A DNA stretch of 57,824 nucleotides from Pararhodobacter sp. (GTDB taxonomy: Bacteria > Pseudomonadota > Alphaproteobacteria > Rhodobacterales > Rhodobacteraceae). A model generated the notes under the pieces. The model saw only the letters and a program-made list of their open reading frames with translations. It was not told the origin of the DNA and did no database searches. The translations under genes and the position numbers were made by a program. Shown here piece by piece: positions 15,208 to 30,626 of this stretch. The DNA lies in the NCBI GenBank assembly GCA_020832665.1, contig JAFIEG010000021.1, positions 1 through 57,824 of the forward strand. Reading direction: 5' to 3'. Position 1 is the first letter of the stretch. Each line of letters opens with the position of its first letter.

Positions 15208-15909
15208 TCAATGGCCAAGATAAGCCTCGCGCACCCGCGGGTTCTCGACCAGTTCGCCAGCCGGGCCGGAAAAAGCGACACGCCCGGTTTCCATCACATA
15301 GCCCCGATCGGCGATACTGAGCGCGCCGAAGGCATTTTGTTCAACCAGTAGAACAGTTACATCAAGGGATTTCAGGTGCCGCACCACTTCCAGAATCTGG
15401 TCTACCAATATGGGGGCCAGCCCCATCGACGGCTCATCCAGCAACAGGCAAGAAGGGCGCGCCATCAGGGAACGAGCAATGGCGAGCATCTGCTGCTGCC
15501 CACCGGAAAGCCCGCCAGCAATCAGGTTGCGTTTCTGCCTGAGCACGGGAAACATCGTGAAGGCGTCTTCCATGTCCTTGGCGACACGGTTATCGGAAAA
15601 GAGATAGGCGCCAAGGCGCAGGTTTTCCTCGACGGTCAGGTTGGTAAAGATCTGCCGGCCTTCGGGGCTTTGCGCGAGCCCGCGCTGCACACGCCGATGC
15701 GCCGGGAGCTTGCCGATATTCTCGCCGCGAAAGGTTATGGTTCCGTCGCTTGCCGGCTGAACACCTGAAAGGCACTTCAAAAGCGTGGTCTTGCCGGCCC
15801 CGTTGGCGCCAAGGATGCAGACGATTTCGCCAGACCCCACCTCGAAGCTCACCCCGTGCAGAACTTCGATTCGTCCGTAGCGCGAGCGCAAACTTTCAAC
15901 CGTCAGCAT
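15208..15909 (-). CDS. livF: Branched-chain amino acid-type ABC transporter ATPase (LivF family)
   Basis: The 233-residue ATPase has Walker A GANGAGKTT at 34-42, the LSGGQQQMLAIARSLM signature, Walker B CLLLDEPSMGLAP and the H-loop region of LivF proteins; it ends VREAYLGH, the normal LivF C-terminus. It powers import through the LivH/LivM channel. The ATG at 15909 lies 14 bases inside the upstream livG gene. Although named for leucine transport, such systems next to CoA-ligase and dioxygenase genes usually import aromatic or short carboxylic acids, which is the likely job here. Confidence 0.9.
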   Translation of the reverse strand: MLTVESLRSRYGRIEVLHGVSFEVGSGEIVCILGANGAGKTTLLKCLSGVQPASDGTITFRGENIGKLPAHRRVQRGLAQSPEGRQIFTNLTVEENLRLGAYLFSDNRVAKDMEDAFTMFPVLRQKRNLIAGGLSGGQQQMLAIARSLMARPSCLLLDEPSMGLAPILVDQILEVVRHLKSLDVTVLLVEQNAFGALSIADRGYVMETGRVAFSGPAGELVENPRVREAYLGH

Positions 15910-16687
15910 GAAGAACCTGCTCCTGCCCTTTCTGGCCCAGATAGGCGGCAATCACATCCGGGTTGGCTGCGACGTCCCCGGGATTGCCCTCGGCAATCTT
16001 GCGGCCATGATCGAGGGCGATGATGTGCGACGATATTTTCATCACCAGCTTCATGTCGTGCTCAACCAGCAGAATCGCCACGCCGGAGCTGGCGATTTCA
16101 GTAATCAGTTGATCGATCTCCTCGGTTTCCACTGCGTTGCAGCCGGCCGCAGGTTCGTCGAGCAAAAGGATCTTTGGACGGAGCGCCAGGGCACGAGCAA
16201 TTTCAAGCCGCTTCAACGCGCCGTAAGACATGGTGAGTGCCTCGCGAAATGCCGCCTTCTCAAGCCCGACACGAGCCAGCAGCGACAAAGCGCTTTCTGC
16301 GGTCGCGCGGGTCTTGCGCCGCGATGAGGGCAAGCCGAACAGGTCTGGCAGCGTTGCCCCCGCTTCCTGCAGATGATGGCCAACCATCACATTTTCCAGC
16401 AGCGTCATCGACGGAAAGACCTGAAGATTCTGGAAGGTCCGTGCCAGCCCCCGCCGCGCCAGCAAATGCGGCTCGGCCGAAGTAACATCGGCGCCGACCA
16501 ACCTGACCGAGCCTTGCGTGGGGCGGTAGAGCCCCGAGATCATGTTGAAAAGTGTGGTCTTGCCTGCCCCGTTTGGCCCAATCACCGAAACGATCTGACC
16601 AGGCCGCACCTCAAACGAGACATCATCGACTGCGCGCAGGCCGCCAAATGCGATGCTGAGATTCGCTACTTCCAGAAGTGGGGTCAT
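15896..16687 (-). CDS. livG: Branched-chain amino acid-type ABC transporter ATPase (LivG family)
   Basis: The 263-residue ATPase has Walker A GPNGAGKTT at 37-45, the LivG-specific GLARTFQNLQVFPSMTLLENV, and a Walker B LLLDEPAAGCNAVETEEI. The signature loop is unusual: MSYGALKRLEIARALA instead of the common LSYGQQRRLEIARAL. The start at 16687 overlaps the livM stop in an ATGA. It forms the ATPase dimer with LivF on the cytoplasmic face. Confidence 0.9.
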   Translation of the reverse strand: MTPLLEVANLSIAFGGLRAVDDVSFEVRPGQIVSVIGPNGAGKTTLFNMISGLYRPTQGSVRLVGADVTSAEPHLLARRGLARTFQNLQVFPSMTLLENVMVGHHLQEAGATLPDLFGLPSSRRKTRATAESALSLLARVGLEKAAFREALTMSYGALKRLEIARALALRPKILLLDEPAAGCNAVETEEIDQLITEIASSGVAILLVEHDMKLVMKISSHIIALDHGRKIAEGNPGDVAANPDVIAAYLGQKGQEQVLHADG

Positions 16688-17643
16688 TTTCCCGCCCTCC
16701 CACGGAAGCGTTTCAACAGGCTGGGCAGCAACCCATCGGGCATGAAGATCATTACAAGGATCATCACCAAACCCAGCACCATGTGCTCGTACTGGTGAAA
16801 TACGGTCAGCACCTGCGGCAGCGCGGTCAGGATCGTTGCCCCGAAGATGGCGCCGAGCACCGATCCGACACCCCCCAGAACGGTCATGGTGACCAGATGC
16901 ACCGAATGCATGAACCCGGCGACATCTGGTGTGACCAGCCGGTTCATGAGCGCCAGAAGCGAGCCGGAGACCGAGGCATACACAGCGGAAATGACGAATG
17001 CGTGGAGCTTGTGGCGGGGAACATCTATGCCCATGGTCCGTGCGGCCACATCCGAGCCGTGCAGGGCACGCAAGGCGCGGCCTGTGGGGCTGTCGAAAAG
17101 GTTGAGTGCGAGCCATGCCCCTGCAATCAACACCGCACCGGCCAGCCAGTACCAGAGTTCGCCCGCACTGACCCGAAAGCCCCAATCGCGCAAAAGGCCG
17201 CGCAGCCCCAGATCGGGCACGGCGATTCCGTCTGGTCCACCAGTCCACTGAGCCTCGTTGGCAAGAACCATCGAGATCAGTATGCCCAGACCAAGGGTTG
17301 CAACCCCCAGGTAATATCCGTGCAGCTTCAGTATCGGCCGCCCGACGATCCAGGCCAGACCGGCCGAAAGGGCGGCCCCGAGCGCTATGGCAAAGACGGG
17401 CGAAATGCCCAGATGAACGGGCGCCAGCGCACAGGAATACGCCCCAATGCCCACGAAACCCGCATGCCCGAGGCTGATCTGCCCGGCATAGCCGATCAGG
17501 ATCACCAACCCGGTGACAGCGATCGCATTGATGAAGATCAGGGCACCCACGCGATAGTAGAAGCCCGAAGGAAAGAACAGCGGCGCCATCACAATCAGGA
17601 CGAATAGCACCAGCAACGAGATATGCTTGGGTTTCAGCCGCAT
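16684..17643 (-). CDS. livM: Branched-chain amino acid-type ABC permease (LivM family)
   Basis: The 319-residue inner-membrane protein has eight to ten hydrophobic segments and the LivM signature GYAGQISLGHAGFVGIGAY near residues 51-69, RALRALHGSDVAARTMGIDV (the cytoplasmic loop that contacts the ATPases) and GGVGSVLGAIFGA. It pairs with LivH. It lies 3 bases after livH and overlaps livG. Confidence 0.9.
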   Translation of the reverse strand: MRLKPKHISLLVLFVLIVMAPLFFPSGFYYRVGALIFINAIAVTGLVILIGYAGQISLGHAGFVGIGAYSCALAPVHLGISPVFAIALGAALSAGLAWIVGRPILKLHGYYLGVATLGLGILISMVLANEAQWTGGPDGIAVPDLGLRGLLRDWGFRVSAGELWYWLAGAVLIAGAWLALNLFDSPTGRALRALHGSDVAARTMGIDVPRHKLHAFVISAVYASVSGSLLALMNRLVTPDVAGFMHSVHLVTMTVLGGVGSVLGAIFGATILTALPQVLTVFHQYEHMVLGLVMILVMIFMPDGLLPSLLKRFRGRAGK

Positions 17644-17646
17644 CGG

Positions 17647-18519
17647 TTACACCCGTTCGGCATGCTTGCTGCCAAACAGGCCCTGCGGCATGAAGAACAG
17701 CAATAGAATGATCAGGATAAACGCAACGGCATCCTTGTATTGCGAACTGATGTAACCGGCCGTCAGGGCCTCGAGGATACCGAGGAGCAGACCGCCAACC
17801 AATGCGCCGACCGGATTGCCCAGCCCGCCAAGCATTGCCGCTGCGAAGCCAGACAGCGCAAGGCCGATACCGACATTGTAGGCGGTCATGGTGATAGGAG
17901 TGACAAGCACGCCGGCAAATGCCCCGATTGCCGCCGACAAGCCAAAGGACAGCGTCATGATGTAGCGCGTGTTGATTCCGACAAGCGCCGCCGCCAAACG
18001 GTTGTTCGATGTTGCAAGCATGGCCTTGCCCGTCAGGCTGCGGGTGAAGAACACCCAAAGGGCGACGAAGATCATGGCCGCGCCGGACATCACCCAAAGG
18101 CTTTGCGGCAAAAGCGTTGCGCCGCCGAAATGAAGGGCGCGCTCGCCGGAGAAGCCGGGATAACGGTGAATCTGCTTGTCGAAGAGAACTGACGCCGCGC
18201 CCTGGATAAAGATCGCCGCGCCAATCGTGATGATGATGACAGATACAACGGGCGCACCGCGCGCCGGCTCGATCGCGAGTTTGTTCAGGGCCACCCCGAG
18301 AAAGGCGGTTCCCATTATCGCCGCTAGCGCGGCCAAAGGCACCGGCAAACCTGCGGCAATTCCGAACACGGTTCCCATGCCGCCCAGCATCACGAACTCG
18401 CCTTGTGCGAAGTTAACCACATCGGAAGCGTTGAAAATGATGGTGAAGCCAAGGGCCAGCAGCGCGTAAACGGCGCCGACAGTCAGCCCGGAAAACAGGA
18501 ATTGAAGAAGATCGGACAT
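17647..18519 (-). CDS. livH: Branched-chain amino acid-type ABC permease (LivH family)
   Basis: The 290-residue inner-membrane protein opens with LLQFLFSGLTVGAVYALLAL and GFTIIFNASDVVNFAQGEFV, the LivH signature, and has LGIDTR-like LVGINTRYIMTLSFGLSAAI in the coupling loop. About eight membrane spans are visible. It forms the channel with LivM. The gene follows the binding-protein gene after 64 bases, in the usual order J-H-M-G-F. Confidence 0.9.
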   Translation of the reverse strand: MSDLLQFLFSGLTVGAVYALLALGFTIIFNASDVVNFAQGEFVMLGGMGTVFGIAAGLPVPLAALAAIMGTAFLGVALNKLAIEPARGAPVVSVIIITIGAAIFIQGAASVLFDKQIHRYPGFSGERALHFGGATLLPQSLWVMSGAAMIFVALWVFFTRSLTGKAMLATSNNRLAAALVGINTRYIMTLSFGLSAAIGAFAGVLVTPITMTAYNVGIGLALSGFAAAMLGGLGNPVGALVGGLLLGILEALTAGYISSQYKDAVAFILIILLLFFMPQGLFGSKHAERV

Positions 18520-18583
18520 GTATGGGCTCCCGCTCTGGACCGATCAGGTGACGCCGCGCTTGCTGCGGGCGTCACCTGGTTAA

Positions 18584-19738
18584 TCAGGGCTGTTCAACCT
18601 CGACCCAGATACCGTCGCGGATCTCCAGAAGGCGGAAGGCGGACAGATCAAGCCCGAGGTGATCGCTGTCGGAGAATGTGTAGGTGCCCGTCGTGCCCAC
18701 CAGACCCGATGTCGCCTCGATGGCATCGCGCAGATCCCGCGGATCTGGGTTTGGGTCACCGTTGCGGATAATGGCATCCACCAGAATTGCCATGGCGTCA
18801 TGGGCATATCCGCCGAAGGTCGAAACCGGTTCGTTGAAACGGCCGACATAGGCATCGCGATAGGCGATGACGACATCGCGCTGGGGGTCGTCGTCGGCAA
18901 GCCTGTCTGCAACCAGCAGCGCGGTTCCCGGCACGCGCACGCCCTCGGCATTCTCGGCACCCGAAAGGTCGATATAGGACTGCCCGGCAACGCCGTGCGA
19001 CTGATAGAACGGCAGTTCGATGCCAAGCTGACGATAGTTGCGTGTCACGATAGCCGGCCCAGAGCCGAAACCGGGATTCAGAACGGCTTCGAGACCGGCA
19101 GTGTTCCGAATATTCGTCAGCTGCGGCACCATATCGGCGTCGCCCGGCGCATAGCGTTCGTCGGCAACGATTTCGATTCCGAAATCGCCGGCAACACCCA
19201 GGCACTGATTGCGCATCGAAGCGCCAAAGCCGTCGGTGCCCGAGATCATCCCGACACGGCTGATACCGCGCTCCTGCATGTCCTCGAAAATCTTCTGGCA
19301 GGCCATGTGGTCGGTGTGCGGCGTCTTGAAGGTGAAGGGGCGCACCGGGTCGATGATCTCGATTCCGCCGGCTACCGAAATGAAGGGAATCTCTTCCTCT
19401 TCCGCGACGGCCAGGATTGCCATCGAGGTGCCGGTCGTGGTGCCGCCGATGATCGCCACAACCCCGTCATGCTCGACCAGGCGGGTTGCGAATGTGCGCG
19501 CGTTGTTCGGGTCACCACCATCGTCGTAGAGGACAAGCTGGATCTGCTCGCCCAGAATTCCGCCGTCCTGATTGATCTGTTCGACCATGAGCCGCAAGGT
19601 CTTTGCCTCCGGGTCGCCAAGGGCGCCGGCGGGCCCCGTTTCGGCTAGCGACGCACCGATTCGGATCTGCGCATTCGCGTCCATCGCAGCCAGCCCGAAC
19701 ATGGCCAGCGTGGCGGCTAGGATTGTCTTCGTTTTCAT
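18584..19738 (-). CDS. Periplasmic binding protein of the LIV-type ABC transporter
   Basis: The 384-residue protein starts at 19738 (GGAGG upstream) with a signal peptide MKTKTILAATLAMFGLAAMD-ANAQ and then the type I periplasmic-binding fold: IRIGASLAETGPAGALGDPE, LVLYDDGGDPNNARTFATRL, IIGGTTTGTSMAILAVAEEE. It captures the substrate for the LivHMGF channel. The ligand cannot be read, but its promoter carries the same operator motif as the dioxygenase and CoA-ligase genes, so it probably binds the aromatic acid degraded by this island. Confidence 0.88.
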   Translation of the reverse strand: MKTKTILAATLAMFGLAAMDANAQIRIGASLAETGPAGALGDPEAKTLRLMVEQINQDGGILGEQIQLVLYDDGGDPNNARTFATRLVEHDGVVAIIGGTTTGTSMAILAVAEEEEIPFISVAGGIEIIDPVRPFTFKTPHTDHMACQKIFEDMQERGISRVGMISGTDGFGASMRNQCLGVAGDFGIEIVADERYAPGDADMVPQLTNIRNTAGLEAVLNPGFGSGPAIVTRNYRQLGIELPFYQSHGVAGQSYIDLSGAENAEGVRVPGTALLVADRLADDDPQRDVVIAYRDAYVGRFNEPVSTFGGYAHDAMAILVDAIIRNGDPNPDPRDLRDAIEATSGLVGTTGTYTFSDSDHLGLDLSAFRLLEIRDGIWVEVEQP

Positions 19739-19796
19739 AAGGGTTCCTCCCTGACCGAGTTTTTCGCGATCAGCTCTGCCCAACCCCTTTGTCAGT

Positions 19797-20005: not shown

Positions 20006-20049
20006 GATTATTATTTCGTGAAAGACCGCGCTTTTTTGGAGCCCACGCC

Positions 20050-21306
20050 ATGATCCAGACGGACGCCCCCGCAGGCATCGAAGGGTTGATCGAACCCACT
20101 CGCGTTCACAGCCGCCTCTACTATGACCGCGACATCTACCAAGAAGAGTTGAGGAAGATCTGGTATCGAAGCTGGGTCTATGTCGGCCATGTAAGCGAAA
20201 TACCGCAGCCGAACGACTATGTGACCAAGTCCATAGGACCGACACCCGTCCTGATGGTTCGTGACCGCAATGGCGAGATACGCCTTCTGCTGAACAAATG
20301 CCCTCATCGGGGCAACCAGCTTTGCGCCTATCGCCAGGGAAACCGCGCCACTTTCACCTGCCCCTATCACTCGTGGACCTTTTCGAACACCGGTGAGTTG
20401 ATCGGCTATGCGCTTGCCGATGGATATGAGGGCGAATCGAAAGTCGGGGTCGGGCTGGGAACGGTTCCCCGGATCGGCATCTATCGCGGTTTCGTTTTTG
20501 GCTCGATGGCTGAAGACGGTGAATCGCTCATGGATTACCTGGGTGGTGCCAAGGCGGCTATCGATCAGCTTTGCGACAACTCGCCCACGGGCGAGGTTGA
20601 GCTGACGGCCGGGTTCCTGCAGCACCGGACAAAGGCAAACTGGAAGTTTCTGCTGGAAAACGAAACCGACGGCTATCACCCGGGCTTTGTCCACGGCTCG
20701 ATCTTTCAGGTCACCAAGAGCGGAATCGCAAATCTCTATGGCACTGAGTCTACCGCGCTGACCCGCGATTACGGCAATGGTCATACCGAATTCGACCTGA
20801 GGCCCGAATGGCGGCGACTGGGCGAGCCGCTGAAATGGTTCGGCACGAATGAACAGCGGCTTCCCGACTATGTGGCGCAGATGAACGCCACCTATGGGCC
20901 AGAGCGCGCGCGGCAAATCATGATCGATGGTTCGCCGCACACGATGATCTTTCCCAATCTTTTCATCGCAGAAATCCAGATATTCGTCCTGCAGCCGGTC
21001 GCGGTGGACGAAACGATCCAACATGTCACCGCCGTTCAGTTCAAGGGCGCGCCTGATATCAACCGCCGCTTGCGGCAGCAGACCATGGGCTCTGTCGGCC
21101 CGGCCGGACTGCTTCTGGCGGATGATACTGAAATGTATGAGCGCAATCATCGGGGGGCGCTCATACAAGACCCAGAGTGGTTGATCTTGAGTCGTGGGCT
21201 TCATCGGGAACGAATCGACGAGAACGGTTATCGTATCGCTCATTCCACCGATGAAGTGCCACAGCGAGGAATCTGGAAACACTATCTAAAGTTAATGCAG
21301 GAGTAA
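20050..21306 (+). CDS. Rieske non-heme iron ring-hydroxylating dioxygenase, alpha subunit
   Basis: The 418-residue protein has a Rieske [2Fe-2S] site, Cys84-x-His86 (CPHRGNQLC) and Cys104-x2-His107 (CPYHSWTF), and the mononuclear iron ligands of the catalytic domain, with Asp207 in the bridge and His210/His215 in DGYHPGFVH. It adds both atoms of O2 to an aromatic ring, giving a cis-diol, with electrons from a ferredoxin (23394) and reductase (26704). The start follows GGAG at 9 bases. The beta-subunit gene begins 5 bases later. Given the CoA ligase and thiolase in the island, an aryl-CoA is a reasonable substrate, as in ibuprofen degradation. Confidence 0.88.
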   Translation: MIQTDAPAGIEGLIEPTRVHSRLYYDRDIYQEELRKIWYRSWVYVGHVSEIPQPNDYVTKSIGPTPVLMVRDRNGEIRLLLNKCPHRGNQLCAYRQGNRATFTCPYHSWTFSNTGELIGYALADGYEGESKVGVGLGTVPRIGIYRGFVFGSMAEDGESLMDYLGGAKAAIDQLCDNSPTGEVELTAGFLQHRTKANWKFLLENETDGYHPGFVHGSIFQVTKSGIANLYGTESTALTRDYGNGHTEFDLRPEWRRLGEPLKWFGTNEQRLPDYVAQMNATYGPERARQIMIDGSPHTMIFPNLFIAEIQIFVLQPVAVDETIQHVTAVQFKGAPDINRRLRQQTMGSVGPAGLLLADDTEMYERNHRGALIQDPEWLILSRGLHRERIDENGYRIAHSTDEVPQRGIWKHYLKLMQE

Positions 21307-21311: not shown

Positions 21312-21839
21312 ATGCCCCTGAAAACCGCACCAATTCATCCGAGTGACGATCTTGCCGCACTTTCCGCCGCCGAATTGCATCACCATGTTTCGCAGTTTCT
21401 TTATCACGAAGCGAGGCTTCAAGACACCCACGCTTACGATGATTGGGAGCAGCTATGGGAAGAGGATGCAATTTACTGGATTCCGGCCAATGGCCACGAC
21501 ACAGACCCGGAAACCCAGATGTCCATCCTTTATGACAACCGCTCACGCATTCGGGTGCGTGTCGAACAGTTGAAAACCGGGCGCCGCCACACGCAAACGC
21601 CCCGATCCGAACTCGCACGGCTGATTTCGAATATCGAAATCACTTTGATCGAGGGAAATGAAGTTTCGGTGCGGGCAAATGTTCTGATCCATGAAGACAA
21701 TCTGCGCGGTGAAACCCTGTGGGCGGCGCGCAACGAATACCGTTTGCGCCAGGTTAACGGGCAATTCCGCCTTGTGCGCAAGAAAGTGGGGCTGGTGAAC
21801 AACGCCAAGCCCGTCTTCACCCTGTCCTTCCTTGTCTGA
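21312..21839 (+). CDS. Ring-hydroxylating dioxygenase, beta subunit
   Basis: The 175-residue protein has the SnoaL/NTF2-like fold of dioxygenase beta subunits: VSQFLYHEARLQDTHAYDDW with WEEDAIYWIPA, then Y-D-N-R-S-R-I-R-V-R, HTQTPRSELARLISNIEI and a final FRLVRKKVGLVNNAKPVFTL. It gives the alpha3-beta3 hexamer its structure and carries no metal. It is directly downstream of the alpha gene and 10 bases ahead of the enoyl-CoA hydratase. Confidence 0.87.
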   Translation: MPLKTAPIHPSDDLAALSAAELHHHVSQFLYHEARLQDTHAYDDWEQLWEEDAIYWIPANGHDTDPETQMSILYDNRSRIRVRVEQLKTGRRHTQTPRSELARLISNIEITLIEGNEVSVRANVLIHEDNLRGETLWAARNEYRLRQVNGQFRLVRKKVGLVNNAKPVFTLSFLV

Positions 21840-21849
21840 GGCCCAAAGC

Positions 21850-22659
21850 ATGAGCACGAACAAACAGAGCTGGATTGCCGATGGCCCGGTCCTTCTGGAC
21901 TTTGCCGACGGGATTGCAACGATCACCCTGAACCGGCCCGCAGCCGCGAATGGCATGAACATCGCCCTCATGCAGGCGCTTCATGGAGCGGTCATGCGCT
22001 GCCACCGCGAGCCTGATGTTAGAGTTGTCCACTTGCGCGGCGCAGGCCGGAACTTCTGCGCGGGCGGGGATGTGCGTGAATTCGCCGCTATGGGAGAGGG
22101 CCTTGGCGATTTCCTGCGCGAGGTCACGGCCTGGCTGCAAATGGCAATTGGCTCATTGATCCGTCTGGATGCGATTGTCGTGACCGAAGTGCAGGGTTAT
22201 GCGGCCGGCGGCGGCGGGCTGGGCCTGGTCTGCGCCTCGGATATCGTGCTTGCGGGCGAAGACGCCAAGTTCATGGCGGGCGCCACGCGGGTCGGCATGG
22301 CGCCCGATGGCGGAGCCTCGGTGATCCTGCCGCATCTGGTCGGCTTCCGTCGAGCAACCGAAATCGTGCTGTCGAACCGGATCGTCGGTGCTGCAGAGGC
22401 CGAGCGCATCGGACTGATAACCCGCATGGTGGCGGATGCGGACCTTGCCGACGAGGCCGCGAAAACCGCGGCATCTTATGCGCAAGGCGCGCCGCTTGCG
22501 CAGGCCGCGGCAAAACGGCTGCTTTGGAACGCGCTGGAGGTCGAGCGCTGCTTGCCGGAAGAGGGCAGAACGGTCGCCAGCCTTTCGGCCAGTGCCGACA
22601 GCCGCGAAGGTCTGGCCGCCGTCATCGAAAAGCGCACCCCGCGCTTTACTGGCCGCTGA
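21850..22659 (+). CDS. Enoyl-CoA hydratase/isomerase family protein
   Basis: The 269-residue crotonase-fold protein shows the CoA-binding and oxyanion-hole motifs GRNFCAGGDVREFA (about 62-75) and EVQGYAAGGGGLGLVCASDI. At the position of the second catalytic acid it reads VGMAPDGGASVILP, the D-G-G-A-S form seen in isomerase-like members rather than the classical hydratase Glu. It may act on the acyl-CoA side chain or on the ring-derived acyl-CoA. The start at 21850 was preferred to an upstream TTG. It overlaps the SDR by one base. Confidence 0.85.
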   Translation: MSTNKQSWIADGPVLLDFADGIATITLNRPAAANGMNIALMQALHGAVMRCHREPDVRVVHLRGAGRNFCAGGDVREFAAMGEGLGDFLREVTAWLQMAIGSLIRLDAIVVTEVQGYAAGGGGLGLVCASDIVLAGEDAKFMAGATRVGMAPDGGASVILPHLVGFRRATEIVLSNRIVGAAEAERIGLITRMVADADLADEAAKTAASYAQGAPLAQAAAKRLLWNALEVERCLPEEGRTVASLSASADSREGLAAVIEKRTPRFTGR

Positions 22660-23375
22660 TGGCACAGGCACTTGTCACCGGCGGCGCTTCGGGCATCGGT
22701 GCGGCCACTGTCCGCCGGTTGGTGCGCGATGGGCATGCCGTCACCTTTGTCGACCTGGATGAAAAGGCCGGGGCCACGCTGGCGACCGAAACGGGCGCTC
22801 GTTTCATGCTGGCAGACGGCACGAACCAGGCGCAGGTCAACCAGGTCCTGACCCGCAGCGAGTTTGAGATTCTGGTCAACAATATAGGCGCCGATCAGCA
22901 CGCATTCTTCACCTCAACCAGTCCTGACGAATGGCGCCGCCTGCTGGCCGTCAATCTGGAAACGGCGTTTCTGTTCTGCCATGGCGTGCTGCCATCCATG
23001 CAGCAACGGGGCTGGGGCCGGATCGTGATGGTTGCTTCCGAGGCGGGCCGCCTGGGCTCGAAAGGAGGCTCGGTCTATGCCGCAGCCAAGGCCGGACTTG
23101 TGGGCTTTGCCCGCTCGCTGGCCCGTGAAAATGCGCGATATGCCATCACCGTGAACGCGGTTCTGCCCGGCCCGGTTCGTACCCCCATGGTGGAACGCGC
23201 CGTGAATGAATTCGGCGGGAAGATACTTGATGACATGGCGGGCCTGACCCTGATGCGCCGCCTTGGCGAGCCTGATGAAATCGCTGCGGCGATCGCCTTT
23301 TTCTGTTCGACAGAGGCCGGCTTCATTACCGGCGAGGCGCTTGGCGTTTCTGGCGGGATGGGCTGCGGTGCCTGA
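22659..23375 (+). CDS. Short-chain dehydrogenase/reductase
   Basis: The 238-residue protein has the NAD(P)-binding TGGASGIG at 7-14, NNIG at 74-77 and the catalytic Ser127, Tyr140 and Lys144 (YAAAK). Asp32 (FVDLDE) after the second strand favours NAD. It could oxidise the cis-diol made by the dioxygenase or a 3-hydroxyacyl-CoA made by the hydratase. It shares one base with the hydratase stop and is followed by the ferredoxin gene after 18 bases. Confidence 0.86.
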   Translation: MAQALVTGGASGIGAATVRRLVRDGHAVTFVDLDEKAGATLATETGARFMLADGTNQAQVNQVLTRSEFEILVNNIGADQHAFFTSTSPDEWRRLLAVNLETAFLFCHGVLPSMQQRGWGRIVMVASEAGRLGSKGGSVYAAAKAGLVGFARSLARENARYAITVNAVLPGPVRTPMVERAVNEFGGKILDDMAGLTLMRRLGEPDEIAAAIAFFCSTEAGFITGEALGVSGGMGCGA

Positions 23376-23393: not shown

Positions 23394-23705
23394 ATGCCAT
23401 GCCTGACCTTCGTTTGCCCCGATGGTCGCGCGATACCGGTATCCGCCCAATCCGGCATGAGCGCGATGGAGGCCGCACGGGGCGCGAATGTCCCCGGCAT
23501 CATCGCTGAATGCGGCGGGGCTTGCTCATGTGCGACCTGTCACGTTCTGGTCGATCCGGAATGGGCCAGTGCGGTCGGTTCGCCCAATGAAATCGAGCGC
23601 GACATGCTGGAATTTGCCGAAAACCCCTGCGAAAACTCGCGGCTGTGTTGCCAGATCACGCTGAACGACACGCTGGACGGGTTGGTGCTGCACCTTCCCG
23701 GCTGA
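23394..23705 (+). CDS. [2Fe-2S] ferredoxin
   Basis: The 103-residue protein has the plant/adrenodoxin-type cluster ligands Cys40-x5-Cys46-x2-Cys49 (ECGGACSCATCH) and Cys86 in SRLCCQI. Extra cysteines at 44 and 85 are not ligands in the usual pattern. It is the obvious electron carrier between the FAD reductase (26704-27917) and the Rieske dioxygenase, and is last in the plus-strand operon 20050-23705. GAGGGAG precedes the ATG. Confidence 0.9.
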   Translation: MPCLTFVCPDGRAIPVSAQSGMSAMEAARGANVPGIIAECGGACSCATCHVLVDPEWASAVGSPNEIERDMLEFAENPCENSRLCCQITLNDTLDGLVLHLPG

Positions 23706-23707: not shown

Positions 23708-24577
23708 TCAACGCTTGCGCCACCAGCCACCGATGGCTGCAAGCGAGTCAGCAGTTTGATGCAGGGCCTCGAACATCTGAAAATGGTGACACATCATCGG
23801 ATACTCGACCAGCGTGACCGCCGCACCCCAAAGTGCTTTCAATGCGCGCGCATCATCCAGCGTGATGTCATGTCCCCCGGCATGGATAAGGACAGGCGGC
23901 AACCCTTCGAGGCTGGAAAACAGCGGCGAAACCTCGGGGCTGCCCGGGGGCGGCCCGTCACGGCCAAGATAGGTGCGCGCCATCGCCTGCAATTGCGCTG
24001 GCTTCGAGAACGGGTCAAGCCCGGCCAGCCGCGCGTAGCTGTCGCCACTGAGCGACAGATCAAGCCAAGGCGAGAGAAGGATCACTGCATCCGGCATTCG
24101 CAATGCGCGATCTCTTGCCCGCTTTGCACAGAGCAGTGCCAGCGCACCGCCAGCAGAGTCACCCATGACCGCAACCGGCGGCGCACCACGCTCTATCATG
24201 GCTTCATAAACACCGAAGGCGTCATTGATGGCAGCCGGAAAGCGGTGTTCGGGTGCGAGGCGATATTCAGGAAGAAACAGCCGCAGGCCCGTGGTTTCGG
24301 CCAGTCGCGCGGCAAGTCCGGCATGCGAGTCGGTGCCACCAATCTGGAACCCCCCGCCGTGGAGATACAGCGCAGCTGGTGCTTGCGTTGCGCCTACCCA
24401 CGCGCCAGGAACACCTGCGAACTCTTCCCTGCACGGGTTGGCCTGGGCAAAACCCGCGGGGCCTACTTCCGCCATGAAGGCGGCGAAATCGGAACGGATG
24501 GCGGCGAGATCCATACCCGCCCAACTGGCAATTCGCGCGGCCAGAACCGCGCGGATCGGCTTCAGCGGGTCGGTCAT
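23708..24577 (-). CDS. Alpha/beta hydrolase of the hormone-sensitive-lipase type
   Basis: The 289-residue protein has the HSL family oxyanion motif HGGG at 73-76, nucleophile elbow GDSAG with Ser141, R-L-A-P-E-H-x-F-P-A-A, an Asp in HAGGHDITLDDA and a His in YPMMCHHFQMF. It should cleave an ester or perhaps a thioester. It is coupled by ATGA to the upstream CoA-ligase gene, so it may release the acid to be activated (from an ester) or recycle CoA. It is convergent with the ferredoxin gene, with a 2-base gap. Confidence 0.87.
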   Translation of the reverse strand: MTDPLKPIRAVLAARIASWAGMDLAAIRSDFAAFMAEVGPAGFAQANPCREEFAGVPGAWVGATQAPAALYLHGGGFQIGGTDSHAGLAARLAETTGLRLFLPEYRLAPEHRFPAAINDAFGVYEAMIERGAPPVAVMGDSAGGALALLCAKRARDRALRMPDAVILLSPWLDLSLSGDSYARLAGLDPFSKPAQLQAMARTYLGRDGPPPGSPEVSPLFSSLEGLPPVLIHAGGHDITLDDARALKALWGAAVTLVEYPMMCHHFQMFEALHQTADSLAAIGGWWRKR

Positions 24578-25893
24578 GCTTCCGGCCGGTGAAGGACGCG
24601 GACCGCCTTGGCCTCATAACGTGGAAGGGTTCCTTCCGGGTGGCATTCGACCTTGATCGCCATGCCCAACCGCGCCCGCACTTCTCGGCAGATCTCATTG
24701 ACGATCTGTTCGGACGGCCGATTGTCCTGTCGAGTTGCTTCGACAGCAACGGTGAGTGTGCCGATGGTCACTCGCTCCTTGTCGATATAGATTTGCCACG
24801 CCTCTTTCACCACGCCGGCAACCCCGGCGATCACATCCTCGATCTGCGAGGGAAAGACCATAACCCCCTTGAACTTGATCATGTCATCCGAACGCCCGAT
24901 GATGCGACCGATCTTTCGCATCCCACGCCGCCCCGACGGGCAGTCATAGGGCCGTGGCGACAAGCGCACCAGGTCGCGCGTGCGCCAGCGCACCACTGGC
25001 GAGGCCTGTTTGGCAATGGTGGTTATGACAATTTCGCCCACCTCGCCTTCGGACACCGGCTGCATCGTGACCGGGTCAAGGATTTCGGTGATGATCGTAT
25101 CTTCATTGAGAAGGTGAAGCTCGTCATCGGCATGGGTGAAAGGCGTCGAGATAGCCAGAACCGGCCCGCCTGCCTCGGTTGTGCCGTAGATGTTCTGGCT
25201 CATGAAGCCCTCGGGCATCTCGGCTTCAAGCTGTGCGCGAAACTGCGACGAGACCGATTGCCCGCCCAGAATGGCCGTCTTCAGTGCCCAGTCCCTGCGC
25301 GGGTCGATGCCCTGCTCCCTGGCGGCCTGCACCAGCGTCATCAGCCACAATGGCGACATCGACGCCACCTCATAGGCATGGTCCTTCAACCATCGCGCCG
25401 CCAGATCGCCCCGGCCCGGCCCGATGGGAAAATTGGTGCAGCCCAGTGCCCGGAAACCCTGATCCAGCGCCGGGCCTCCAATCCAGAGGCCATAGCCATA
25501 ACCTTGATAAGCCCGCGCGCCGGGCTGCACACCGGCGGCGGTCAGCAGGCGGGCCATCTGATAAGGTAGAAGCTCTTCGAAATCGGCGCGTGTCATGCCG
25601 AACAGCACGGGCAGCCCGGTTGTGCCTGAAGTGGCAACAAAACGCATCACTGATTCCATCTCCACCGTCAGGAAAGGGAAAGGGTAGTGATCGCGAAGAA
25701 CGGATTTTTCGAGAAACGGCGCGTTCTGCAGGCCGTCAGGCGATGCCAGATCCTCGGGCTTCATACCCGCAGAAGCAAAGTGCCCGCGCCACATGGCGCA
25801 GCGCCCAAGATGCTGCCCGAACTCGGCCAGTCGCTTGCGCTGCAACGCAAGAATGCCGTCACGGTCCAGGCTTTCAATCTCGGGGTGTTGCAT
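24574..25893 (-). CDS. Phenylacetate-CoA ligase-like aryl/acyl-CoA ligase
   Basis: The 439-residue AMP-forming ligase has the family P-loop SGTTGLP at 89-95, the YGTTEAGGPVLA adenine-binding motif, RTRDLVRLSPRPYDC (usually RTRD-L) and the C-terminal FKGVMVFPSQIEDV. It should join an aryl-acetic or related acid to CoA with ATP. The start at 25893 follows GGAGG. Operator C lies about 60 bases upstream and the TetR gene is divergent. IpfF of ibuprofen degraders belongs to the same family. It differs from true PaaK in lacking paa neighbours. Confidence 0.87.
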   Translation of the reverse strand: MQHPEIESLDRDGILALQRKRLAEFGQHLGRCAMWRGHFASAGMKPEDLASPDGLQNAPFLEKSVLRDHYPFPFLTVEMESVMRFVATSGTTGLPVLFGMTRADFEELLPYQMARLLTAAGVQPGARAYQGYGYGLWIGGPALDQGFRALGCTNFPIGPGRGDLAARWLKDHAYEVASMSPLWLMTLVQAAREQGIDPRRDWALKTAILGGQSVSSQFRAQLEAEMPEGFMSQNIYGTTEAGGPVLAISTPFTHADDELHLLNEDTIITEILDPVTMQPVSEGEVGEIVITTIAKQASPVVRWRTRDLVRLSPRPYDCPSGRRGMRKIGRIIGRSDDMIKFKGVMVFPSQIEDVIAGVAGVVKEAWQIYIDKERVTIGTLTVAVEATRQDNRPSEQIVNEICREVRARLGMAIKVECHPEGTLPRYEAKAVRVLHRPEA

Positions 25894-25966: not shown

Positions 25967-26101
25967 GGTCTTTTCAAATGAAGAATTACGTCAGATTCAA
26001 CTTTGGCACCGGCTTGCGGCGGTTGGCATGTTTCCCGCCACAGACTATACTCCGAACGGGTAGACTGATTATATTGCCCCGCATTTGCTGGAGGTCACAA
26101 C

Positions 26102-26707
26102 TTGGCGCGAACACGATCTGCGGAATACGACAACATTCAGGATACGATCGTTGCTCGTGCGGCATCGGTCTTTGCCCGTCGTGGCTTTGCAGCCACTTCG
26201 ATCGGCGATATCGCCGAAGCCTGTGAATGCTCGAAATCGCGGCTCTATCACTACTTCGATGGAAAAGAAGCGATATTGCGTGAAATCCTGACAACACATG
26301 TGGACAACCTGCTCAACCGGCTGCGCACCGTCCTTTTCCGAGCCAGCGACCCGCGCGAGCGCTTCACGGAAATGGTCAAGCTTTTTCTCGAGATCTACGC
26401 CGTCTCGCGCGATCGCCATGTTGTTTTACTGACCTGCCTGGATGCCCTGTCACCAGAACACCGCAACGTGCTGATCACCAAACAGCGCGAACTGATCGCC
26501 CATGTACGCGAAGCACTGCTGCAACTCCGTCCTGATCTGGCCGATGACAGGGTGAAGTCGCAGATCGATACAATGCTGTTCTTCGGCATGATCAACTGGA
26601 CCTACACATGGTATCGCTCGGATGGGCCGGTTTCGCATGACGAACTGGCAGAGCGCACGGTCGAGCTGTTTCTCGATGGCTACCTGGCCACCCCGGAGCC
26701 TGGCTAG
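26102..26707 (+). CDS. TetR family transcriptional regulator
   Basis: The 201-residue protein starts with TTG at 26102, supported by GGAGG 7 bases upstream; no ATG fits. The N-terminal helix-turn-helix is typical: ARAASVFARRGFAATSIGDI, AEACECSKSRLYHYFDGKEA. The ligand domain is variable, as expected. TetR repressors of this kind in aromatic-acid clusters usually sense an acyl- or aryl-CoA. Four copies of a GAACGA-type motif in the island's promoters make it the local regulator. Its stop overlaps the restored end of the convergent reductase gene by three bases. Confidence 0.88.
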   Translation: MARTRSAEYDNIQDTIVARAASVFARRGFAATSIGDIAEACECSKSRLYHYFDGKEAILREILTTHVDNLLNRLRTVLFRASDPRERFTEMVKLFLEIYAVSRDRHVVLLTCLDALSPEHRNVLITKQRELIAHVREALLQLRPDLADDRVKSQIDTMLFFGMINWTYTWYRSDGPVSHDELAERTVELFLDGYLATPEPG

Positions 26708-27917
26708 CATCCAGCCTTAAGCAGGTGGACAGGGTCGAAACCTGCAACTTTGAGGTGAGAGGGATGAACCATCTTCCTCCCTTCAAGGAGTTTTTTTCCT
26801 CCATGAAGGCGCGGGCATCGTTCAGCGCATCCACCGCAATCAATTGGTTCCGGCGGAAATACCAAAATGATTTGCCTCTGCTCGAGCTGCGGGCGATGAC
26901 ATGATCAAACCCCCGGCTCAACCCCGCAATCTGCAACTTTGTATCGAACTGGTCAGACCAGAACCAGGGAACCGGCCTGTAAGCGCGCGGCGCGCCCAGG
27001 ATCGCATCGGCGACGGATTCGGCCTGATCGATAGCATTCTGAACGCTTTCCAGCCGGGTGGGCTGGCCATCGAAATCGAAATTGGCGCAATCGCCGGCAG
27101 CCCAGATGCCCGAGCTTGAAGTCCGGCCAAGGAAATCAACCCTTATGCCATTGCTGCAAACCACCCCGGCGCGTTCTGCCAGTTCGGAACGAGGCAACAC
27201 CCCGATGCCGACGACTGCAAGGTCCAGCGGGATTCGGGCACCATTGTCCAGGTGCACAGCGGTCAGCGCGGTTTCGCCCTCGGTTCGGGTGACCGCCCGC
27301 CCCTCCATAATACGCACCCCTTGCTTTTCATGAAGGGCGCGGATTTCGGCTGCGGTTTGTGCGCAGGCAACCCGCGCGAGCAGTCGCGGTGCGCGCTCTA
27401 CAACCGTGACCGAAAAGCCGGCGCTTGCCGCTACGGCGGCGGTTTCCAGCCCGATATAGCCACCACCCAGAACCAGCATATGCAGTCCAGTGCGAAAATA
27501 TGGGCGCAAGGCATCCACATCTCGGATGGTGCGCAAATCAAAGACGTTGTTGCGGCCCCCGAAGCCCTGTGGTCGCGGCCGCGGTCGGGCGCCGGTCGTC
27601 AGCACCAGTTGATCAGAGAAAATTCGTCCCTGTTCTGTTTCAAGGCTTTTCTGTGCCGGGTCGATGGCAAGAACCTTGCTTGCGACACACACATCAATGC
27701 CGGCTTCGCGCCAGAAGGCGGCCGGATGCAGAAGCAGGCGCTCGGCCTCCCAGTCACCACTCGGGTATTTCTTTGAAAGCGGCGGGCGCTGATAGGGAAG
27801 GCGCGACTCTTCGGCAAACATGGTGATGGTGCCATCGAACCCCCCTGCCCGCAGGCGCGCGGCAAGCGCCGCCCCCGCCTGACCGCCGCCCACTATTGCG
27901 ACCGTTGCCCGCTTCAT
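26704..27917 (-). CDS. FAD-dependent ferredoxin reductase; frame changes at an A_AAA_AAC heptamer
   Basis: The protein has two dinucleotide folds, VAIVGGGQAGAALAARLRAG at the N-terminus (FAD) and MLVLGGGYIGLETAAVAASA near 145 (NAD(P)H), plus GIWAAGDCANF. This is the rubredoxin/ferredoxin reductase type that feeds Rieske dioxygenases. In frame 0 the protein runs on through foreign-looking sequence to 26592, inside the TetR gene. At the seven-A run (26791-26797) the codons are GAA AAA AAC; a -1 slip there gives KKLLEGRKMVHPSHLKVAGF, then DPVHLLKAGC, and a stop at 26704, the normal length of about 404 residues. This is either a lost A, or a real frameshift or slippage site. Operator D lies in its promoter. 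Confidence 0.8.
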
Positions 27918-27938
27918 CGCCGTCGCAGAAAATTAGTT

Positions 27939-27950
27939 GAATGGTCGTTC
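27939..27950. promoter_or_regulatory. TetR-type operator D, reductase/thiolase-fold promoter
   Basis: GAATGGTCGTTC is an imperfect palindrome matching operator B in 10 of 12 positions. It lies in the 97-bp region between the divergent reductase and HMG-CoA-synthase-like genes and could control both. Confidence 0.55.
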
Positions 27951-28014
27951 TGTCTATTATAGTGCTGAAATCTGGATCGCAACCAGATCTTTTCGAACGG
28001 CGGAGGCATAGCAG

Positions 28015-29409
28015 GTGAGCAGCATCAAGAGCATCGGCGCGTATCTTCCGCAATTGCGGCTGGAACGCAGCGCCATCGGGCAGGCGCTGGGCTGGCTGAC
28101 TACAGGAACGGGGCGCGGTCTGCGCACCCTGGCCTTTTGGGATGAAGACAGTGTCACCATGGCGGTCGCCGCAGCGCGCAACCTGCCGGCAAAGGATCTG
28201 CAAGCCATCGAAACCCTGACCCTTGCAACCACCACGCCCCCATTTGCCGAGCCGCAGAACGCCGCACTGACCCATGCCGCGCTTCGCTTGCCACGTTATT
28301 GTTGCACGCAAGATGCCACCGGCACGCCACGCGCCACACTTCTTGCATTGCATGCGGCGCTCGAAAATGGCCGGAACGCCTTGATCGTAGCGGCCGACAA
28401 ACCCGTTGCAAAGGCAGGGAGCGCGGCAGAATCCCGCGCGGGCGATGCCGGGGCGGCGGTGCTTGCCGGCGCCGGCGACGGGCTTTTGAACTATCTTGCG
28501 GGTGCCAGCCTTTCGGCGCCCTTTATCCATCGAAGCCGTGCCACCGGGGCAACCTTTCCGCTGGATTGGGAAGACCGCTGGATCCGCGAGGAGGGTTATC
28601 TGAAGCTACTGCCCGAGGCGATCAAAACCGCCCTCGAACGCGCCGGCCTTGCGCCCGACGCCATCAATCACCTGATCCTGCCCTGCGCGATGGCGGGCGC
28701 GGCTGCATCAGTGGTACGCGCTGCAGGGCTGACGAATGCACGACCGGCCCCCGATCTCAACGATCAGGTAGGCGACACCGGAACGGCTCATGCGCTGCTT
28801 ATGCTTTGCGCCGTCGCACCGCAGATTGCACCCGGAGAAACCGTTGTGCTGGCACAGTTTGGCCAGGGCGCCACAGCGCTGGTGTTCGCCGCCGGAGAGG
28901 GGCTGCAGCAACTTGGCGGATTGAAAGAGCAGATTGATGGCGGTCGGGTCGAGACCTGCTATGCCAAGCTTCTGGCATTTAGCGATCAACTGGACTGGGA
29001 TCGCGGTTTGCGAGGCCGCTACATCGTGCCCGAGTCGCAATCAACCGCCTATCGCAACGCCGAAGCAATCTTCGGCTTCGTGGCCAGCCGAGACCCCCAT
29101 ACCGGGCAGGTTATCTTTCCGCCAACTGCCGGGGGCGGGCTAGAGCCCTGGCCACTGGCCGACCGGGGCGGAACGGTAGCAACAATGACCAGCGATCTGC
29201 TCGCCTTCTCAAGGCATCCGCCCAATTGTTACGGGCTGGTCGATTTCAATGGCGGTGGCCGGCTGATGATGGATTTCACTGACCCGGACGCCCCGGACCT
29301 GGCGCCGGGTGATCCGGTCCGATTCGTGTTCAGGGTAAAGGATATCGACGCACATAGCGGCTATCGCCGCTACTTCTGGAAGGCCGTGCGTGACGCGGCG
29401 CCAGCCTGA
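28015..29409 (+). CDS. HMG-CoA-synthase-like thiolase-fold protein fused to a DUF35 OB-fold domain
   Basis: The 464-residue protein starts with GTG at 28015 (GGAGG 8 bases upstream). Residues 1 to about 330 have the thiolase fold of the HMG-CoA synthase branch (IKSIGAYLPQLRL, ALERAGLAPDAINHLILP, GDTGTAHALLML). Where family members have the nucleophilic Cys in D-x-T-G-S-C-R, this one reads DATGTPR (Pro105), so it is probably not catalytic. Residues about 335-464 are a DUF35 OB-fold, IFGFVASRDPHTGQVIFPPT onward, without the zinc-ribbon cysteines. DUF35 proteins act as obligate partners of thiolase-like enzymes; the thiolase gene is 23 bases downstream. Confidence 0.8.
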   Translation: MSSIKSIGAYLPQLRLERSAIGQALGWLTTGTGRGLRTLAFWDEDSVTMAVAAARNLPAKDLQAIETLTLATTTPPFAEPQNAALTHAALRLPRYCCTQDATGTPRATLLALHAALENGRNALIVAADKPVAKAGSAAESRAGDAGAAVLAGAGDGLLNYLAGASLSAPFIHRSRATGATFPLDWEDRWIREEGYLKLLPEAIKTALERAGLAPDAINHLILPCAMAGAAASVVRAAGLTNARPAPDLNDQVGDTGTAHALLMLCAVAPQIAPGETVVLAQFGQGATALVFAAGEGLQQLGGLKEQIDGGRVETCYAKLLAFSDQLDWDRGLRGRYIVPESQSTAYRNAEAIFGFVASRDPHTGQVIFPPTAGGGLEPWPLADRGGTVATMTSDLLAFSRHPPNCYGLVDFNGGGRLMMDFTDPDAPDLAPGDPVRFVFRVKDIDAHSGYRRYFWKAVRDAAPA

Positions 29410-29432
29410 TAATCAAGCTTGAGGAGCACGTC

Positions 29433-30626
29433 ATGGCCACGGGACTCAAGGACAAGGTCGCCATTCTGTCAATGGGTTGCTCGCGCTTCGGGGAACGCTG
29501 GGACATGGGGCAGGAAGACCTGATGCGCGAAGCATTTTATGAAGCACTGCAGCGCGCAGGTATCGGCGCCGAGGACATAGGTGCGGCCTGGTACTCTGCG
29601 CATTATGACGACATCGGGGCCGGCAAATCGGGTGTCCCCATGGCCATGGCGCTGAGCCTTCCGGGGATCGGGGTAACGAGGGTGGAGAACTTCTGCGCCG
29701 GCGGCACCGAGGCGTTTCGAGGTGCGGTCATGGCGGTGGCGTCCGGTGCAGTGGATATTGCACTGGCGATGGGTGCCGAAAAGCTGAAGGACACAGGCTT
29801 TGCCGGTTTGCCGCCAGCCTCGCGCGGAACGCTGGCGCCAATGTATATGCCCACCCATACGAATCCCGGCAACTTTGCTCAGCTTGCTCGCGCCTATGAG
29901 GCAGTGCACGGCCTGAGCCGGGGTGACCTGAAGCACGCGATGGCGCACACCTCCATGAAAAGCCATGCCAATGCCGCAAAGAACGAAAAGGCCCATTTGC
30001 GCCGCCCGATCACCATCGAGCAGGCACTTCAGGCCCCTATCGTCGCCGACCCGCTGGGCTTGTTCGACTGCTGCCCGGTATCGGACGGCGCCGCCTGCGC
30101 CCTGCTCACCACCCCCGAAATTGCCAGGAGTCTGTTGAACATCGATCCTGTTCTTGTGAAGGCTGCCCAGCTTGTCACATCCAACGGATGGGAAGCGCAG
30201 CAATCGGAATGGAACGGCGCCTATGTGCACACGACACGCCTTGCAGCACGCGCGGCCTATGCCGAAGCCGGCATCAACGATCCGCGACGTCAGATCAGCA
30301 TGACCGAATTGCACGATTGCTTTTCCATCACCGAGCTTGTCACGCTGGAAGATCTTGGGCTTGCCGATTCCGGCACTGCCTGGCGCGCCATGCTGGATGG
30401 TCGCTTTGATGGTGACGGGGTGCAGCCGTGCCAAATTGATGGCGGTCTGAAGTGTTTTGGCCATCCGGTCGGGGCTTCGGGTTTGCGGATGCTCTACGAA
30501 GCCTGGCTGCAACTCACCGGACAGGCAGGTACCCGTCAGCTGCGCTTGCCCAGTCTCGCGCTCACACACAATCTCGGCGGTGCACCAGCCCAGAACGTCT
30601 CATCGGTAACTATCGTGGGGCTTTAG
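29433..30626 (+). CDS. Thiolase (SCP-x/non-specific lipid-transfer type)
   Basis: The 397-residue protein has the thiolase nucleophile Cys88 in ENFCAGGTEAFRGA, the ELHDCFSITELV motif of the SCP-x branch, and GGLKCFGHPVGASG with the catalytic His. This branch includes IpfD-like enzymes that cleave carbon-carbon bonds together with an OB-fold partner. Here the partner would be the fusion protein encoded just upstream. In the proposed pathway it would remove the acyl-CoA side chain after ring ipso-dioxygenation. GAGGAG precedes the ATG. No terminator is obvious downstream. Confidence 0.87.
   Translation: MATGLKDKVAILSMGCSRFGERWDMGQEDLMREAFYEALQRAGIGAEDIGAAWYSAHYDDIGAGKSGVPMAMALSLPGIGVTRVENFCAGGTEAFRGAVMAVASGAVDIALAMGAEKLKDTGFAGLPPASRGTLAPMYMPTHTNPGNFAQLARAYEAVHGLSRGDLKHAMAHTSMKSHANAAKNEKAHLRRPITIEQALQAPIVADPLGLFDCCPVSDGAACALLTTPEIARSLLNIDPVLVKAAQLVTSNGWEAQQSEWNGAYVHTTRLAARAAYAEAGINDPRRQISMTELHDCFSITELVTLEDLGLADSGTAWRAMLDGRFDGDGVQPCQIDGGLKCFGHPVGASGLRMLYEAWLQLTGQAGTRQLRLPSLALTHNLGGAPAQNVSSVTIVGL

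Follow-up and report, generated by a model that had tools for sequence, protein, structure and literature searches.

The window analysed here is the whole stretch of 57,824 nucleotides at positions 1 to 57,824 of contig JAFIEG010000021.1 of Pararhodobacter sp. (GenBank assembly GCA_020832665.1), and at positions 15208-30626 it carries an island of genes that includes a Rieske-type oxygenase, a coenzyme A (CoA) ligase and a thiolase. We read this stretch, with a little less than even confidence, as a two-module catabolic island that degrades a carboxylic acid, probably aromatic, as its CoA thioester and ends in thiolysis. The reading draws on features that were computed directly, namely which genes are present, how the oxygenase is related to known enzymes, active-site residues of the thiolase and isomerase types, a catalytically dead domain of the 3-hydroxy-3-methylglutaryl-CoA synthase (HMGCS) type and the co-occurrence of the modules in other genomes. 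No title or abstract describing this cluster was found in the literature, in a search that covered subscription journals thinly and is not proof of absence, and the gene set, which other bacteria also possess, is apparently not yet described.

Module I could provide import and oxygenation, and module II activation and cleavage. In the order of steps that we infer, the acid would be taken up by the Liv-type importer and ligated to CoA by the PaaK-type ligase, after which the Rieske enzyme, presumably acting on the CoA ester, would oxygenate the acyl-CoA with electrons delivered via a flavin adenine dinucleotide (FAD)-dependent reductase and the ferredoxin. The PaaG-like crotonase would then shift a double bond and the short-chain dehydrogenase/reductase (SDR) would oxidise the product to a beta-ketoacyl-CoA, which the thiolase would cleave on a scaffold of fused dead HMGCS domain and OB fold, comparable to the archaeal thiolase/HMGCS/DUF35 and PhlACB complexes.

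The island is intact, every named gene being an open frame with the expected domains in profile searches, and the ligase, Rieske alpha and beta subunits, ferredoxin, thiolase, DUF35 protein, transporter and TetR regulator are all found where an earlier sequence-only reading had placed them. The FAD reductase is likewise what that reading took it to be, with a frame that ends at 26592 and not at 26704. Module I (15208-23705) consists of the Liv-type importer on the minus strand, divergent from the Rieske alpha and beta subunits, crotonase, SDR and ferredoxin on the plus strand; module II (23708-30626) consists of a hydrolase and the ligase (minus), the TetR gene (plus), the FAD reductase (minus), and the HMGCS/OB fusion and thiolase (plus). 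The guanine-plus-cytosine fraction is 0.604 in the island, 0.650 at 1-15000 and 0.623 at 30627-57824.

Kinship of the oxygenase

Related loci were taken as the best 80 of a longer match list together with six plasmid records, which is not a census, and the gene families around them come from a home-made picker of open reading frames, not a gene caller. Sixty loci are referred to as window-type (L001, L002, L004-L058 and L065-L067) and ten as ipf-type (L003, L063 and L068-L075), the latter group having been drawn after gene content was seen.

The alpha subunit of the island has both Rieske ligand pairs and the residues D207, H210 and H215. Its best matches in the PDB are two IadD sequences, and in the plasmid collection nearer relatives at 57-70% identity precede IpfA of plasmid pIBU218 at 42%. 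Among the characterised enzymes compared, IpfA and IpfB are by sequence the closest relatives of the oxygenase, with 42-44% identity for the alpha and 40% for the beta subunit. Over the same N-terminal stretch of the alpha subunit the identities lie close together (IpfA 43%, HcaE 39%, naphthalene dioxygenase 39%, IadD 36%), so that the argument for kinship is carried by a maximum-likelihood tree of 67 rows, comprising the window, 41 of the 60 window-type loci, IpfA, other loci, a host paralogue and three typed fragments. The window type forms one clade (100/99) within which IpfA is not nested, and a branch of 100/99 joins this clade with 12 rows holding IpfA, actinobacterial ipf-type loci and Binatota/Rokubacteria loci. 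IadD stands elsewhere, with the host paralogue (100/100), and the fragments of HcaE and naphthalene dioxygenase fall outside. The weak point is the 12-row IpfA side, itself at only 91/78, and a long-branch warning includes IpfA. The tree did not place the alpha subunit with a dioxygenase of known free-acid substrate, the outcome that the sequence-only reading had named as speaking against itself. IpfA groups with Binatota/Rokubacteria rows (100/99) and not with the other IpfD-carrying loci, so that "ipf-type" does not denote one clade; its nearest alpha subunits in the tree are those of the Binatota/Rokubacteria loci (L059-L062 and L064 being Binatota).

The Ipf dioxygenase is described as attacking ibuprofen-CoA (PMC9195938), and because IpfA and IpfB are the closest relatives among the characterised enzymes compared, we can reasonably infer a CoA-thioester substrate for the island oxygenase. 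If the enzyme does take CoA thioesters, such clusters would represent a natural reservoir of aryl-CoA oxygenases and possibly the setting where drug-degrading pathways assembled. The ipfABDEF cluster (pIBU218, Rhizorhabdus wittichii MPO218) resembles the island in its Rieske alpha and beta subunits, CoA ligase, PF01796 OB-fold protein, thiolase-fold enzyme and solute-binding protein, whereas the island lacks an IpfD-type enzyme, has a ligase of another type than IpfF and an OB fold that is not free-standing, and contains a crotonase, an SDR, a true thiolase and the HMGCS/OB fusion.

Thiolase, crotonase and fusion protein

The ipf-like gene set proposed in the sequence-only reading holds for the oxygenase, which is nearest to IpfA/IpfB, and for the Pfam family of the OB fold, which is that of IpfE (PF01796), but not for the deacylation half. 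The thiolase shares 27% identity with IpfD over 205 residues only. Its Cys, HDCF and GHP recur in all 34 sequences (33 homologues and the window), in contrast to the nine IpfD-type proteins, IpfD included, of which all have Gly in place of the Cys, eight have YDPF and one YDAF, and none has GHP. No IpfD homologue (at least 38% identity) is found in any of the 60 window-type loci, 28 of which give weaker BLAST matches of up to 32%. The OB fold, although of IpfE's family, is the C-terminal part of another fusion with no BLAST match to IpfE, and the ligase, which had been equated with IpfF, matches it at a non-significant E = 0.40 and is of the PaaK type.

According to a study of Sal (PMC12329534, J. 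Biol. Chem. 2025), SCP-2 thiolases carry HDCF and a second, nucleophilic Cys, and the aldolases Ltp2 and Sal carry YDHF and YDCY, Sal having Gly at the nucleophilic Cys. The steroid side-chain aldolases Ltp2/ChsH2 and Sal/Shy share with the island a thiolase fold and a DUF35 partner but differ from its thiolase at these very positions. By this criterion the residues predict aldolase activity for IpfD but thiolase activity for the enzyme of the island; the ibuprofen cleavage step itself is named a retro-aldolase in the introduction and a thiolase in the discussion of PMC9195938. Annotation by resemblance would assign an ibuprofen-type deacylation with which the active sites disagree.

Such a deacylation is a rather unlikely alternative, in which the aryl-CoA would be dioxygenated at ipso/ortho positions and then lose its acyl side chain to leave a catechol, the role of IpfDE being filled by the thiolase complex or by the crotonase, which would act as a retro-aldol lyase. 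IpfA is the nearest characterised oxygenase, the binding protein is 40% identical to that of the ipf cluster, and PhlC, a relative, is described as making and breaking aryl-acyl bonds with its Cys (PMC6392133). The five Binatota loci, nearest to IpfA, also have no IpfD homologue (0/5) and no window-type crotonase, fusion or thiolase, so that even close to IpfA the presence of IpfD is not constant. The true-thiolase residues and the missing IpfD homologues speak against this alternative, under which the SDR and the beta-oxidation genes of the relatives would moreover be superfluous. As the equivalence with IpfD fails and the crotonase is a core partner, side-chain removal from an ipso-diol is not the default reading for the island.

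The crotonase had been regarded as an enoyl-CoA hydratase added to an ipf-like set. Instead, it is the most constant oxygenase partner after the beta subunit (50 of the 60 window-type loci), and of the 51 sets with both genes, 48 have it on the strand of the alpha gene and within 6 kb of that gene. With the numbering of the rat hydratase residues and of the PaaG Asp, both hydratase glutamates are absent in 51/51 sequences, the Glu164 column holding Ala in each and the first-Glu stretch reading G(L/M/F)G(L/F), and the PaaG-type Asp is present in a PD(G/A)G motif in all 51. For this protein an isomerase (or a lyase) function is more probable than that of a hydratase. Its PaaG score of 149.8 lies under the cut-off of 345, so that it is not a PaaG equivalog. 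Its best solved relatives carry enoyl-CoA hydratase labels (6sl9, 6slb and 3hrx, the last of which we take to be Thermus PaaG), with Escherichia coli PaaG (4fzw) further down.

The OB fold is indeed fused to a catalytically dead thiolase-fold domain, as had been proposed, and this domain is specifically HMGCS/PhlA-like. The best sequence matches of the N-terminal domain are HMGCS/KAS III and PhlA, all weak, and the catalytic Cys column, placed by FabH alignment, holds Cys in none of 37 fusions. An AlphaFold2 model built with 35 sequences reached a mean predicted local distance difference test (pLDDT) of 85.9 and a predicted template modelling score (pTM) of 0.90, and Foldseek retrieved for it first a chain of 6esq (archaeal thiolase/HMGCS complex), followed by MucABC (9vbo), the resorcinol acyltransferase 9skh and PhlABC (5mg5). 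The archaeal acetoacetyl-CoA thiolase/HMGCS/DUF35 complex and PhlACB/MucABC likewise unite a Cys thiolase, an HMGCS-like protein and a DUF35 OB fold, whereas in the island the HMGCS-like and OB parts are fused and the setting is catabolic; the island thiolase matches the archaeal thiolase at E 3.7e-46 and PhlC at E 5.9e-14 at best. PhlA, like the fusion, is without a catalytic Cys, and acyl transfer is described as using PhlC residues only (PMC6392133). By analogy, the fusion could serve as a scaffold of the thiolase. The zinc-ribbon segment of its DUF35 part (FVASRDPHTG...) has no cysteines in the window and four in 18 of the 37 fusions.

Of the 34 sets with both a fusion and a thiolase gene, 30 have the two side by side on the same strand. 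The two genes are likewise adjacent in five plasmid loci examined out of the 32 plasmid records that match the fusion. These five loci (Azoarcus, Tistrella, Novosphingobium, Sphingomonas and Variovorax) have no annotated Rieske genes and no common substrate among them; the pairs mostly lie among SDR, MaoC, acyl-CoA dehydrogenase, crotonase and CoA-transferase genes, whereas the neighbours of the Novosphingobium pair are not beta-oxidation genes but SDRs, a VOC protein and genes of the fumarylacetoacetate-hydrolase family. Because the pair also occurs without annotated Rieske genes, it looks like a general thiolase unit that was recruited to the island.

Linkage and distribution of the modules

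The modules were followed through 60 genomes, the host (G000) and 59 relatives, at limits of E<=1e-150 for the alpha subunit and the ligase and E<=1e-30 for the fusion. The alpha subunit is found in three genomes, the ligase in the same three, and the fusion in these three and in three genomes of other families at 37-41% identity. Within the genus, alpha, ligase and fusion occur in the same 3 of 18 genomes (G000, G009 and G016), the other 15 having neither module at the limits used. In the two sister species G009 and G016 the modules are unlinked: the hydrolase, ligase, TetR, fusion and thiolase genes lie together on another contig, and in G016 module I adjoins housekeeping genes. The FAD reductase has no match in the stretches of G009 and G016 that were examined. 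That the modules are unlinked yet kept together argues for their belonging to one pathway.

Farther afield, one Azorhizobium and two Xanthobacter loci show the same gene order, except that a CaiB-like gene separates ferredoxin from hydrolase and that the thiolase is truncated at the end of the stretch examined or lies past it. The core of alpha, beta and crotonase is seen again in tens of loci from Actinobacteria and Proteobacteria, and these recurrences make the arrangement more than chance. One strain with the island is Xanthobacter autotrophicus DSM 432 (locus L009), whose thiolase gene lies past the stretch examined. In the 60 window-type loci the beta subunit is present 58 times, the crotonase (at least 45% identity) 50, the fusion 36 and the thiolase (at least 40%) 33 times; the ten ipf-type loci hold an IpfD homologue in nine cases (not L074) and the crotonase, fusion or thiolase in none, and on the sister side overall an IpfD homologue of at least 38% occurs in 9 of 15 loci. 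The window type is a family of Rieske clusters in Proteobacteria and Actinomycetota that stands near the ibuprofen enzymes in sequence and has a different machinery for C-C cleavage. Ipf-type clusters with an IpfD-type protein occur in Actinobacteria (mycobacteria, Frankia, Tomitella and Pseudonocardia; L063, L068-L073 and L075), which suggests natural substrates for ibuprofen-type chemistry.

The operons of some relatives add a PaaH-like dehydrogenase, a QPE-motif hydratase and further crotonases, and also other CoA ligases, acyl-CoA dehydrogenases and CoA-transferases, all under the equivalog cut-offs, two of them passing general subfamily models (PRK06205 and PRK08268). The gene families round the related loci reveal no single consistent upstream step, and therefore no substrate is claimed. 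The mycobacterial cluster adjoins MlaD-family genes, annotated in L006 and matched by shared gene families upstream of the cluster in L038 and L050, a hint that the substrate in these three loci is hydrophobic; Mce systems import hydrophobic compounds.

An unlikely alternative would have an alicyclic or terpenoid-like acid as substrate, the Rieske enzyme inserting a single oxygen atom at an sp3 or alkene carbon of the acyl-CoA, as a monooxygenase, and the rest being ordinary beta-oxidation. That such Rieske enzymes can be monooxygenases is reported for IadDE (PMC12633357). The sub-cut-off matches of related loci include cyclohexanecarboxylate-CoA ligase, cyclohexanecarboxyl-CoA dehydrogenase and BadH, of which only BadH is a best match, for the window SDR, and the locus of Mycobacterium avium adjoins MlaD-family genes. 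However, PaaK-type ligases and Liv-type importers are typical of aromatic acids, and aromatic compounds are the substrates of the characterised oxygenases in the comparison.

Ring cleavage, host pathways and neighbouring genes

A search with seven ring-cleavage query proteins (intradiol, VOC extradiol and LigB, without gentisate or homogentisate cupins) found no match in the window, in agreement with the sequence-only reading that no ring-cleavage dioxygenase is encoded there, and a match near only one of the 60 window-type loci, the BphC-like extradiol dioxygenase of L067 (L067:3160-4077, 41%).

Several observations weigh against degradation by way of thiolysis in a two-module island. The same ring-cleavage search finds nothing near nine of the ten ipf-type loci, only L003 having a match, so that the absence of such genes is weak evidence and is equally in keeping with ipso-deacylation; the ring-cleavage gene needed for ibuprofen is reported to lie far from ipf on pIBU218 (PMC9195938). 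Elsewhere the host genome encodes protocatechuate 3,4-dioxygenase and HpaD, both above cut-off, two catechol/chlorocatechol-1,2-dioxygenase-like proteins and one catechol-2,3-dioxygenase-like protein, all three under cut-off, and a LigB-family protein, and these catechol-type intradiol and extradiol-like enzymes leave room for a catechol product. The thiolase and the fusion are missing from many window-type loci, some by contig or flank limits, and may consequently act later in the pathway. Ten loci have no crotonase: six are short contigs (L011, L024, L028, L033, L058 and L066) and L046, cut 2.8 kb downstream, carries a 37% homologue, but L010, L034 and L036 are without it despite full flanks. 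Furthermore, the residue patterns predict thiolysis without proving it, and the co-occurrence of the modules rests on three genomes, of which G009 and G016 are possibly close kin, some of the 15 genomes lacking both modules being incomplete.

The cluster raises the testable question of whether a Rieske product can be broken down by way of isomerase, dehydrogenase and thiolase steps and not by way of a catechol. A bolder and quite improbable form of this idea is that an aryl-CoA is oxygenated by the Rieske enzyme and its ring opened without a ring-cleaving dioxygenase: the SDR would oxidise the cis-diol CoA to a cyclic beta-ketoacyl-CoA whose ring C-C bond would be cleaved by the thiolase complex (or by the PaaG-like crotonase), and beta-oxidation would finish the chain. 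If true, this would add to paa and box a third logic of aerobic, CoA-dependent degradation.

A second phenylacetate or auxin pathway, for which the PaaK-type ligase and the IadD chains as best PDB matches of the alpha subunit could be cited, is very improbable, because elsewhere in the host genome there already are two strong genes of the PaaA/PaaC family (PF05138), together with an iad-like operon distinct from the island; the alpha subunit lies outside the IadD branch and the ligase far under the PaaK cut-off. The auxin identity, prompted by those PDB matches, was rejected on account of the tree and the separate operon, and a plain phenylacetate identity is weakened by the PaaA/PaaC-family genes. 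The aerobic CoA-dependent phenylacetate (paa) route does resemble the island in its PaaK-type ligase, PaaG-type isomerase and thiolase, and its PaaH-like and hydratase genes are also found in some island relatives, whereas the island has a Rieske oxygenase instead of PaaABCDE and no PaaZ was noticed in it.

The iad-like operon of the host (locus L110, G000:C76:20000-39900) occupies positions 8893-17489 of that locus and encodes an alpha subunit with 59% identity to IadD over 213 residues, a beta subunit, a CoA ligase, a thiolase-fold protein, a Cyclase-family protein, an SDR and a binding protein of the tripartite ATP-independent periplasmic (TRAP) type, which suggests that this organism degrades auxin. 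The iad auxin operon of Variovorax shares with the island a Rieske oxygenase, a CoA ligase, a thiolase-fold protein, a dehydrogenase and an uptake binding protein, but the island oxygenase is on a different branch, and no crotonase or HMGCS/OB fusion is among the nine genes iadC-K2 as presented in the available part of PMC12633357. The IadG-like protein of the host (L110:12388-13551), a single sequence, has aldolase-like residues, YDDY and Gly, at the thiolase HDCF and Cys positions. IadG may thus be a retro-aldolase and not a ketothiolase as it is named in PMC12633357.

The genes of the island are listed in Table 1. SACE_7040, FasR and Bacillus FadR, the families nearest to its TetR regulator, are presumably acyl-CoA sensors. 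The TetR and FAD reductase genes are convergent, their 3' ends overlapping by 116 bases (26592-26707).

Table 1. Genes of the island, with positions in the window and supporting matches
Feature	Position	Strand	Evidence
LivF-type ABC ATPase (uptake)	15208..15909	-	ABC_tran PF00005; start checked; 78% in congeners
LivG-type ABC ATPase	15896..16687	-	PF00005 and PF12399; start checked
LivM-type permease	16684..17643	-	PF02653; 87% in congeners
LivH-type permease	17647..18519	-	PF02653; 82-83% in congeners
Solute-binding protein	18584..19738	-	PF13458; 40% to binding protein beside ipfF on pIBU218
Rieske oxygenase alpha subunit	20050..21306	+	PF00355/PF00848; in the tree, one branch joins its clade to the IpfA side
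Rieske oxygenase beta subunit	21312..21839	+	PF00866; 40% to IpfB
Crotonase, without hydratase glutamates, with PaaG-type Asp159	21832..22659	+	Profile search, alignment columns
SDR dehydrogenase	22659..23375 (start about)	+	Best NCBIfam BadH, far under cut-off
2Fe-2S ferredoxin (electron carrier)	23394..23705	+	PF00111; TIGR02007 under cut-off
Alpha/beta hydrolase (Abhydrolase_3 / HSL type)	23708..24577	-	PF07859; homologues in 21/60 window-type loci
PaaK-type CoA ligase	24574..25893	-	PaaK equivalog 275.8 bits against cut-off 646.3; PDB 2y4o
TetR regulator	26102..26707	+	Nearest NCBIfam SACE_7040, FasR, Bacillus FadR, all under cut-off
FAD-dependent ferredoxin reductase type	26592..27917	-	PF07992 and PF14759; 40%/37% to reductases of L002/L003
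Fusion of dead HMGCS/PhlA-like domain and OB fold (DUF35)	28015..29409	+	PF08541 and PF01796; model, Foldseek
SCP-2 type (SCP-x) thiolase with Cys88, H294-D-C296-F, GHP	29433..30626	+	PRK06157 640 bits against cut-off 403

To the right of the island, a second catabolic cluster at 30991-46281 contains genes for MarR and isochorismatase-like proteins (two labels assigned by eye only), a fused TRAP transporter, a metallo-beta-lactamase (MBL) hydrolase, an EutA/arylmalonate-decarboxylase-like protein, an FAD monooxygenase, an HpaE-like aldehyde dehydrogenase, a CaiB-type CoA-transferase and a thiamine pyrophosphate (TPP) enzyme.

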